In this document: positions 11,665 through 15,913 of the stretch, piece after piece
How the letters are laid out: each line of letters begins with the position of its first letter
How positions within the stretch are numbered: the stretch's first letter is position 1
Origin: Erythrobacter donghaensis
GTDB lineage: Bacteria; Pseudomonadota; Alphaproteobacteria; Sphingomonadales; Sphingomonadaceae
DNA: 15,913 nucleotides
Direction of reading: 5' to 3'
Assembly: GCF_001557325.1 (NCBI RefSeq)
Contig: NZ_LSJS01000058.1
Span: 1 to 15,913 of the forward strand
Notes under the pieces: model-generated
Told to the model about the DNA's origin: nothing
The model's database searches: none
Seen by the model: only the letters and a program-made list of their open reading frames with translations
Position numbers and translations under genes: made by a program

Positions 11665-11740
11665 GCGCGCAGGAGGCCAGCGAAATCCCATGCCCTTGGT
11701 GGATCGGGGGCGGGTCAATCGAAAGGACGGAAAGCCTCCC

Positions 11741-14413
<2,673 letters not shown>

Positions 14414-14421
14414 GGAGAGGC

Positions 14422-14922
14422 ATGAGACCAGGTCGCGCCGTTCTTCTTCTCGCTCCCGCCCTGCTGCTGGCGCTGCCGGCCTGCGGGGATGATGCGGGCG
14501 AATCGAAGAGCAAGCGCGAGGCGCCTTCGGTACCCCTCGGCTTCGAGCTCGCCTTTGCCGGAACCGCGGGCGAGGCTGAAGCGGTGCCTGCACCTTCCGC
14601 GCTAGTGCCGCTCACCCCGCAGGAACTTGCCGCGAAGATCGAGGCGGGCGATGTCCGCCTGATCGACGTGCGCACCGACGAAGAGGTGGCAGGCGGCATG
14701 ATTGCGGGCGCCGAGCACATCGCGCTCGACCGCTTCGATCCGGCCAAGCTCGACCTCAGTGACGGGCGCGAGGTGGTGCTCTACTGCCGCTCGGGCCGGC
14801 GTTCGGCCATCGCGGGCGAAAAGCTGGCTGCGGTGACAGGTGAGCCGGTGGAGCACCTTGAAGGCGGGTTGCTCGCCTGGCAAGCCGCCGGGCAGAAGGT
14901 CGAAACCCCGCAAGGGCAGTAA
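14422..14922 (+). CDS. Rhodanese-domain lipoprotein
   Basis: 166 aa. A strong ribosome binding site (AAGGAG) overlaps the acnA stop. Residues 1-20 are a signal peptide ending in LALPAC, with Cys21 the likely lipidation site; proline at -2 is unusual but tolerated. After a linker, the rhodanese domain covers about 60-158: RLIDVRTDEE (78-87), active-site loop CRSGRRS with Cys121 (121-127), and HLEGGLLAWQAAG. Single-domain rhodaneses carry persulfide sulfur or act as redox or binding modules. Placement outside the cytoplasm makes a direct role in repairing the aconitase cluster unlikely. Residues at +2 and +3 (Gly, Asp) do not give a clear inner-membrane retention signal. Cotranscribed with acnA, ending at the terminator at 14943. 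Confidence 0.87.
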   Translation: MRPGRAVLLLAPALLLALPACGDDAGESKSKREAPSVPLGFELAFAGTAGEAEAVPAPSALVPLTPQELAAKIEAGDVRLIDVRTDEEVAGGMIAGAEHIALDRFDPAKLDLSDGREVVLYCRSGRRSAIAGEKLAAVTGEPVEHLEGGLLAWQAAGQKVETPQGQ

Positions 14923-14942
14923 GCAACAGGGAACAAAGGAAA

Positions 14943-14970
14943 AGGGCGGCCCCGCAAGGCCGCCCTCTTT
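14943..14970. terminator. Bidirectional rho-independent terminator
   Basis: AGGGCGGCC (14943-14951) pairs perfectly with GGCCGCCCT (14958-14966) around a 6-nt loop. On the plus strand CTTTCGTT follows, ending the acnA operon. On the minus strand the stem is followed by TTTTCC, serving the convergent Ser-rich gene whose stop is at 14993. Confidence 0.85.
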
Positions 14971-14992
14971 CGTTGTGCGCAGGTGCACGGCC

Positions 14993-15913
14993 TCAGCCGA
15001 GGAACTTGCGGCGCCCGAGGATCGCCGCGGCGGCGAGACCGAACAGGATCGTCATCGGCGGCGCGGGGACATCGTTGCCGCCCGTGGTGGTGCCGCTGGT
15101 GCTGCCGCTGCTCGAGGAGGAGGACGAAGAGCTGCTGCTCGACGAGGACGACGACGAAGAGGAAGTCGACCCGGTGGTTCCGCTCGAACCGCTCGAGGAG
15201 GAGGACGACGACGAGGAGGACGACGAGCTGCTCGAAGTGCTGCTGGTCATGTCGCCCGAAGACCCGCCGCTGGTCGCCCCGCCTGACGAGGAGGAGGACG
15301 AGCTGCTGCTCGAGGAAGAGGAAGAGCTCGACGAGGACGAGGACGAAGAGGAGCTGGAGCTCGTCACCGCCCCGGTCGAGGAACTGACGTTGCCCGAAGA
15401 GCTCGAGACGTTGCCCGACGAGCTCGACACATTGCCCGAGGAACTGGACACGTTGCCGGAAGAGCTCGACACCGCGCCGGTGCTCGACGAGACCGCGCCA
15501 GTCGACGAGGAAACGGCGCCGGTGCTCGACGAGACCGCCCCGGTCGAGGACGAGACATTGCCCGAAGTGCTGGTGCTCGACACCGCCCCCGTGCTGCTCG
15601 AGACCGCGCCGGTGCTGCTGGTGCTCGACACCGCGCCGGTGCTGCTCGAGACCTGTCCGGTCGAGGAGGTCACCACGCCCGAGGACGAGGTGGTGGTCGA
15701 CGTCAGCGTGCCCGACGAGGACGTGGTCGAGGTCGAATTGTCGATGTCGATATCGATCACAATGCCGCTCGACCCGCTGCTCGAACCGCTGGTCGAGCCG
15801 CTGCTGCTGCCCGAGGTCGAGGTCGAGGTGGTGGTCGAGACCGAGACGTCGCCCGAGGAGGAACCGCCGCCGCCGAAGAAGCCGCCGAAGAAGCCGCCGC
15901 CGAAGCCGAAGCC
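14993..15913 (-). CDS. Serine-rich repeat protein with PEP-CTERM-like C-terminus (5' part missing)
   Basis: The gene runs off the right edge; 306 C-terminal residues are visible and the start is outside. A GTG at 15760 is in frame, but open coding continues upstream of it to the edge, so it is not the likely start. In order: a Gly/Phe-rich stretch (GFGFGGGFFGGFFGGGG, 15913-15863), a Ser/Thr/Gly region, the alternating segment VIDIDID (15760-15740), about 14 repeats of the type SSSTGAV or SSSSGNV, then Ser runs of 26, 15 and 19 residues. The last 26 residues include DVPAPP, a hydrophobic stretch and GRRKFLG, fitting a PEP-CTERM-like sorting signal that an exosortase would process. It is therefore probably exported and surface-bound, and may be glycosylated on Ser/Thr. 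Family membership beyond the sorting signal is not recognised. A terminator lies 22 nt downstream. Confidence 0.8.
   Translation of the reverse strand, partial: GFGFGGGFFGGFFGGGGSSSGDVSVSTTTSTSTSGSSSGSTSGSSSGSSGIVIDIDIDNSTSTTSSSGTLTSTTTSSSGVVTSSTGQVSSSTGAVSSTSSTGAVSSSTGAVSSTSTSGNVSSSTGAVSSSTGAVSSSTGAVSSSTGAVSSSSGNVSSSSGNVSSSSGNVSSSSGNVSSSTGAVTSSSSSSSSSSSSSSSSSSSSSSSSSSGGATSGGSSGDMTSSTSSSSSSSSSSSSSSSGSSGTTGSTSSSSSSSSSSSSSSSSSSSGSTSGTTTGGNDVPAPPMTILFGLAAAAILGRRKFLG
15107..15361 (-). repeat. Three poly-serine tracts
   Basis: Read on the minus strand there are 26 consecutive Ser codons (15361-15284), 15 (15235-15191) and 19 (15163-15107), separated by short Gly/Thr-rich links. The 26-residue run uses TCC 9 times, TCG 7, AGC 6, TCT 3 and TCA once, so the nucleotide sequence is not a simple repeat. 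Confidence 0.9.
15365..15670 (-). repeat. Seven-residue tandem repeats (SSSTGAV/SSSSGNV)
   Basis: Fourteen units encoded by 21-nt, or twice 27-nt, segments: one ending TGQV, eight ending TGAV and five ending SGNV. Four TGAV units in a row are followed by four SGNV units in a row. Two units carry two extra residues (SSTSSTGAV, SSTSTSGNV). Codons for the same residue differ between units. Confidence 0.9.

Follow-up and report, generated by a model that had tools for sequence, protein, structure and literature searches.

The window, that is, the whole stretch of DNA that was analysed (15,913 nucleotides of a contig of Erythrobacter donghaensis), breaks off at its right edge within a gene read on the minus strand. 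The frame from 15913 to 14993 comprises 306 codons and a stop and remains open through that edge. Beyond its 3' end lie a hairpin and two plus-strand neighbours, and the features considered here are as follows.

14993..15913, minus strand: 3' portion of the gene, comprising 306 codons and a stop, with the start codon outside the window past the right edge; coding judged by third-position bias against five orthologs
15863..15913, minus strand: Gly/Phe block GFGFGGGFFGGFFGGGG, visible residues 1-17, by sequence composition
15695..15862, minus strand: Ser/Thr/Gly region with IVIDIDIDN, residues 18-73
15365..15691, minus strand: 15 units of [ST]4-G-x-V within residues 75-183, by pattern count; tandem repeats also at the DNA level
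15284..15361, minus strand: first poly-Ser run, 26 residues, TCN and AGC codons mixed
15191..15235, minus strand: second poly-Ser run, 15 residues
15107..15163, minus strand: third poly-Ser run, 19 residues
14996..15073, minus strand: sorting-signal-like C-terminal tail (DVPAPP, hydrophobic span, RRK), by sequence and conserved in homologs
14940..14969, no strand assigned: terminator-like hairpin between two convergent genes, usable from either side
14422..14922, plus strand: convergent neighbour that keeps its synteny with the gene across the genus and whose product, judged by its sequence, is presumably a rhodanese-like protein
11690..14413, plus strand: neighbour acnA, presumably aconitase (again judged by sequence) and the source of the tree used below

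The order ruvB, the gene, the convergent rhodanese gene and acnA is kept in the genus. Between ruvB and the rhodanese gene, the alignment interval spans 1269-3414 bases in 43 gene-carrying genomes of the genus (G025 has no rhodanese match, and acnA served as its far flank); at 16 of the 18 gene-negative loci (G034 and G049 being excluded) it spans 9-823 bases with the neighbours unchanged, some of the longer intervals holding small ORFs of other kinds. The hairpin forms 13 pairs when read on the minus strand and 9 when read on the plus strand, and a T-rich stretch follows in each direction.

Serine accounts for 144 of the 306 visible residues (47%), with 48 Gly and 39 Thr. The original prediction had described a layered architecture, and the Gly/Phe block, the Ser/Thr region, the three poly-Ser tracts and the tail are all present in the translation. 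The predicted heptad repeats are there as well at a pitch of about 7 residues, but the pattern [ST]{4}GxV counts 15 units rather than the 14 claimed, and two of the steps measure 9 residues. The poly-Ser runs, which start at residues 185, 227 and 251, all intermix TCN and AGC codons, which argues against simple triplet slippage as their origin; since single base changes connect TCN with AGC only by way of another residue, the mixture points instead to selection on the protein. The protein ends in NDVPAPPMTILFGLAAAAILGRRKFLG, with MTILFGLAAAAILG as its hydrophobic span and a stretch of 17 residues whose hydropathy averages 1.7.

Codon-position differences from five orthologs (first/second/third: 49/44/106, 66/56/112, 44/36/111, 34/28/94 and 54/44/143) concentrate at the third position, and synonymous codon differences outnumber non-synonymous ones in all five comparisons (e.g. 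107 versus 25), with the proviso that the protein-guided alignments bias the result toward the tested frame. Together, the third-position bias and the synonymous excess indicate that the minus strand codes, as had been proposed, and that the other long open frames are by-products of composition. Those frames might otherwise be taken to mean that the Ser-rich protein is a compositional artefact whose true coding frame lies on the opposite strand. The codon comparisons reject opposite-strand coding, however, and the artefact reading is further opposed by the presence of the N-terminal domain in 37 of 84 genera, by its occurrence with the tail in one ORF in 82 of 83 complete homologs, and by the position of the terminator-like hairpin at the gene's 3' end; we accord it a vanishingly small probability.

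What lies past the right edge can be read from orthologs, the nearest genome searched (G001) matching window positions 14300-15913 at 79% DNA identity. The ortholog start resembles MSLKLAIAKLSAAAAGVALLQGGAVRMAEP and is followed by an RRRRIVERT-containing segment, a pair of conserved Cys, a Pro-rich stretch and then GGGFFGG, a motif that is invariant in 21 alignment rows trimmed at that very motif and nearly invariant in 20 full-length rows. Erythrobacter and Porphyrobacter orthologs begin with a signal-peptide-like N-terminus, a Lys-containing start plus an Ala-rich hydrophobic stretch, and a candidate for the export signal that had been anticipated is seen in the orthologs rather than in the window itself. 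Fourteen of the first 29 residues are invariant among 21 diverse family members, and in the family alignment this signal-like region hardly varies from genus to genus; signal peptides are normally less constant than this. An AlphaFold model covering residues 1-173 (mean pLDDT 46.7, pTM 0.11) shows helices at 4-21 and 71-76 in an otherwise unstructured chain, which only suggests that this region is disordered.

A search for homologs gave 90 loci, 89 of them with the N-terminal domain; setting aside one open-ended sequence and five repeated copies leaves 83 distinct complete homologs, the frameshifted L133 included. Their lengths run from 195 (the frameshifted copy) to 894 residues (median 497) and their median Ser fraction is 0.35, and 14 of them have no poly-Ser run of at least 8 residues. 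The comparison indicates that what the family has in common is a body rich in Ser/Thr/Gly together with the tail, whereas the length of the poly-Ser runs and the number of repeats drift. In the ortholog L133 / L035 of G023 the N-terminal and Ser-rich parts stand in different frames, through either a frameshift or a sequencing error. No Pfam or NCBIfam family scored over its cut-off for the window ORF or three orthologs, in agreement with the earlier remark that the combination matches no described family; a protein-database search with the N-terminal region returned only four proteins, three named hypothetical and one nameless, and no published description of a Ser-rich, VPAPP-tailed family was found in the open-licence literature. 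This is a real, conserved and, by these searches, undescribed family that resembles PEP-CTERM substrates.

The resemblance is seen in the tail. The motif VPAP[PGAS] occurs in the last 45 residues of 82 of the 83 homologs, as VPAPP in 80 (79 in the last-38-residue slice, plus L269) and VPAPG in 2. At its extreme C-terminus the window protein has the layout of the PEP-CTERM type, i.e. VPAPP, a hydrophobic span and the basic RRK. The literal Pro-Glu-Pro, near-invariant in PEP-CTERM proteins according to Haft et al. (2006, PMC1569441), is not there: the Glu is missing, and VPEP appears in none of the 83 last-38-residue slices. With VPAPP in its place, the family is better described as a VPAPP variant of the PEP-CTERM kind than as a plain member.

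The PEP-CTERM profile PF07589 was run at E values up to 1 on 16 hand-picked genomes, 12 of them carrying the gene. It matched the ortholog in all 12 carriers, over the cut-off of 20.7 bits in five (G398 at 32.2, G137 at 24.5, G101 at 23.7, G119 at 23.4 and G022 at 20.8) and below it in seven; in 14 control genomes it matched in six, never above the cut-off. The window protein itself scores 14.9 bits, under that line, such that the predicted exosortase-type signal gains from the ortholog matches and from the co-occurrence with exosortase described below but falls short on the window's own score. At a 17-bit line set after the scores were seen, the ortholog is the sole ORF matched by PF07589 in six of the 12 chosen carriers (G001, G032, G053, G111, G131 and G137), whereas the median reported by Haft et al. 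(2006, PMC1569441) is eight PEP-CTERM proteins per genome; cargo was counted with PF07589 alone and may be undercounted. The other six carriers hold one or two additional PF07589 ORFs over the cut-off. In the four chosen genomes with neither gene nor exosortase no ORF exceeded the cut-off, G007 having a 462-residue ORF at 17.2 bits; weak matches of this sort, to ORFs 462-474 residues long, turn up in genomes both with and without exosortase and look like false positives.

The exosortase of G001 is XrtA (289.6 against a cut-off of 208), and beside it lie ORFs over the cut-offs of the ATPase, deacetylase, FemAB, glycosyltransferase and amidotransferase models (the models over cut-off being TIGR03109, 03015, 03006, 03019, 03087 and 03108, with TIGR03018 and TIGR03016 below). 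The exosortase A model and these marker genes define an XrtA locus in G001, outside the window, and lend substance to the earlier suggestion of an exopolysaccharide link. The Ser-rich gene is not part of it, lying on contig C14 and the XrtA locus on C31. A DNA match 8 kb from the G001 exosortase (L004) was dropped; it falls inside an ORF that we take to be ribonuclease-E-like. Also rejected as part of a linked system was the PrsK-type histidine kinase (TIGR02916), which is nearly ubiquitous: 96 of 100 genomes of the genus have a match above its cut-off, including 21 of the 23 without exosortase, and hence it is uncoupled from the sorting system here.

Across these 100 genomes, the exosortase profile PF09721 and the N-terminal profile of the gene each match 77, both together in 73 and neither in 19, leaving four genomes with the gene only (G053, G109, G119 and G137) and four with exosortase only (G024, G033, G049 and G123). 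Thus 73 of 77 gene carriers have exosortase, an association for which Fisher's test gives p 5e-13, ignoring kinship. Among the 81 good-quality genomes the counts are 64 with both, 13 with neither, three with the gene only and one with exosortase only. At the level of the order, PF09721 matches 326 of 396 genomes, a first profile of the gene matches 155 of 396 and a wider family profile 205 of 366; all but one of these 205 belong to one family, and 202 also have PF09721, the gene occurring without exosortase only in G137, G215 and G398. Conversely, the gene is present in 201 of the family's 232 exosortase-positive genomes and the other 31 have no family-profile match, counts that rest on a reconstructed draw of 366 genomes taken to end at handle G433. 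That its relatives occur mostly where exosortase occurs makes the gene product a good candidate main cargo of the enzyme in this bacterial family.

Kinship was considered on a 60-row aconitase tree comprising 59 genomes of the genus and the window; another 39 of the 100 did not enter it, G034 and G102 were skipped in having no usable acnA, and G049 and the window each had one trait set as unknown. On this tree the gene changes 6 times and exosortase 10 times. Four independent pairs on starred branches differ in the gene, and exosortase differs in the same direction in 3.9 of them on average and in the opposite direction in none; six supported pairs differ in exosortase, the gene following in the same direction in 3.6 and showing no difference in 2.4. 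Sign tests on these pairs did not reach p 0.05 in either direction.

The tail could also be a mere C-terminal membrane anchor, such that the protein would stay in the inner membrane and be no exosortase substrate. The hydropathy of the tail and the VPAPP motif in place of PEP accord with an anchor, as do G053, G119 and G137, in which the gene and an intact tail are kept and no exosortase was found. A further search with TIGR04178 at E values up to 10, to which G001 responded, likewise found none in these three genomes or in G109, G045 and G013 (G215 and G398 were not among the genomes searched). These exceptions carry little weight, however. G053 is a metagenome-assembled genome (MAG) with an eroded XrtA locus (L282 5631-9453): the ATPase and deacetylase give near-whole matches, the outer-membrane protein matches over its final 110 residues only, FemAB is split between two frames, and the glycosyltransferase gene passes from its start directly into the end of the amidotransferase gene, from which it follows that exosortase is missing there; the erosion may be either real decay or a MAG assembly fault. 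G137 is another MAG, and G119 holds two further strong PEP-CTERM ORFs (36.6 and 35.2 bits); neither G119 nor G137 has a deacetylase over the TIGR03006 cut-off. Since strong PEP-CTERM ORFs occur in G119, G215 and G398, all without a detected exosortase, unassembled replicons are possible, and the exosortase of G119 may reside on one. The fourth gene-only genome, G109, has a completeness of 71%, and its XrtA locus is truncated where a contig ends within the deacetylase gene. With exosortase absence accompanying gene loss in nearly all of the supported pairs, we consider a simple anchor unlikely.

A second alternative is that the gene and the exosortase locus are dispensable surface functions, shed independently by some lineages with no direct functional link. 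It draws on clustering in the tree, where 11 of the 15 double-negative rows fall within a single region, and on the 2.1-2.8 Mb genomes of many double negatives. Yet the double negatives G013, G019, G058, G106 and G129 are 3.0-3.3 Mb in size and at least 99% complete, and G033, an assembly of 440 contigs, is the only one of the 81 good-quality genomes to have exosortase without the gene. Each of the four exosortase-only genomes is a draft assembly in 230-440 contigs, with a completeness of 72-84% in three. The retention of PrsK in most exosortase-negative genomes also speaks against general shedding, though this kinase is too widespread to be a fair control. Independent shedding therefore strikes us as improbable. 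In one double negative, G058 (L283 8525-9605), an XrtA-type deacetylase and an ATPase fragment remain.

The explanation that we favour, and regard as probable on the strength of comparative sequence evidence, is that the gene encodes an envelope protein, disordered and processed by exosortase, which is conserved in Erythrobacter and its family and partners the polysaccharide of the XrtA locus. Persistence of the gene beside the eroded locus of G053 and the weaker outcome of the reverse pair test slightly lowered our confidence in it. The protein would be exported by Sec and held in the inner membrane by its tail, whereupon XrtA would cut near VPAPP and the product would be delivered to the cell surface; there, the hydrophilic Ser/Thr body and the cationic segment may keep the XrtA-locus polysaccharide near the cell, resulting in a protein-polysaccharide coat. 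It is enticing to go further and speculate that XrtA is kept chiefly for this one cargo, which would be joined to the surface polysaccharide or its lipid to form a proteoglycan-like coat. This extension is tentative and, on balance, doubtful; were it true, a pairing of one enzyme with one cargo would account for the repeated joint absence, the single-candidate genomes and the fixed tail.

How exosortase A acts on its cargo, and which cargo matters, are in our view largely open questions in the field. The gene sits at a fixed site beside ruvB in the genus and co-occurs with XrtA, and half of the carriers searched have no other clear PEP-CTERM ORF; an exosortase A with a single candidate substrate would provide a simple test system that includes cultured strains. 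The Ser/Thr body may also be O-glycosylated and serve as a stalk or adhesin, as the original prediction proposed. The long Ser-rich, low-complexity region resembles that of the serine-rich repeat adhesins of Gram-positive bacteria, which possess such a region, but the window sequence has no LPXTG and its relatives are Gram-negative.

Set against PEP-CTERM proteins as portrayed by Haft et al. (2006, PMC1569441), the family shares a putative N-terminal export signal (signal-like in the orthologs), a C-terminal motif with hydrophobic span and basic cluster, a presence that tracks exosortase, the layout of a single gene after an intergenic gap, and the exopolysaccharide link; besides its VPAPP and the frequency with which it is the sole candidate, it departs from them in a presence independent of PrsK. 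The closest functional parallel found, a model for what such a protein can do rather than a presumed homolog, is PepA of Aquincola tertiaricarbonis RN12, a PEP-CTERM protein of an exopolysaccharide-making bacterium. In an rpoN1 mutant, extra PepA lowered soluble and raised bound polysaccharide and did not restore biofilm (excerpts of PMC9850573). PepA differs from the Ser-rich gene in being RpoN-dependent, and the same excerpts mention no Ser-rich repeat body for it. The nearest studied locus found, a possible relative of the XrtA locus of G001, is cluster B of Sphingomonas LM7, which makes a cell-surface polysaccharide; an exosortase-associated amidotransferase is tabulated there under a footnote b, taken to denote cluster B (PMC11340318). 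That paper nowhere uses the term PEP-CTERM.

A sigma-54-type site precedes most, not all, proteobacterial PEP-CTERM genes according to Haft et al. (2006, PMC1569441), and in this respect too the family differs: a simple pattern search of 41 upstream regions (from 56 loci) found no sigma-54-like site. Across these 41 loci the gap between ruvB and the ATG measures 113-306 bases. Within the last 260 bases of the gap, GGGACAG occurs in 36 of the 41 loci (shuffled mean 0.77) and GGTTAAC in 30 (shuffled mean 0.48), a conservation that partly reflects shared descent because the loci are related. The GGTTAAC upstream of the gene resembles a CtrA half-site.
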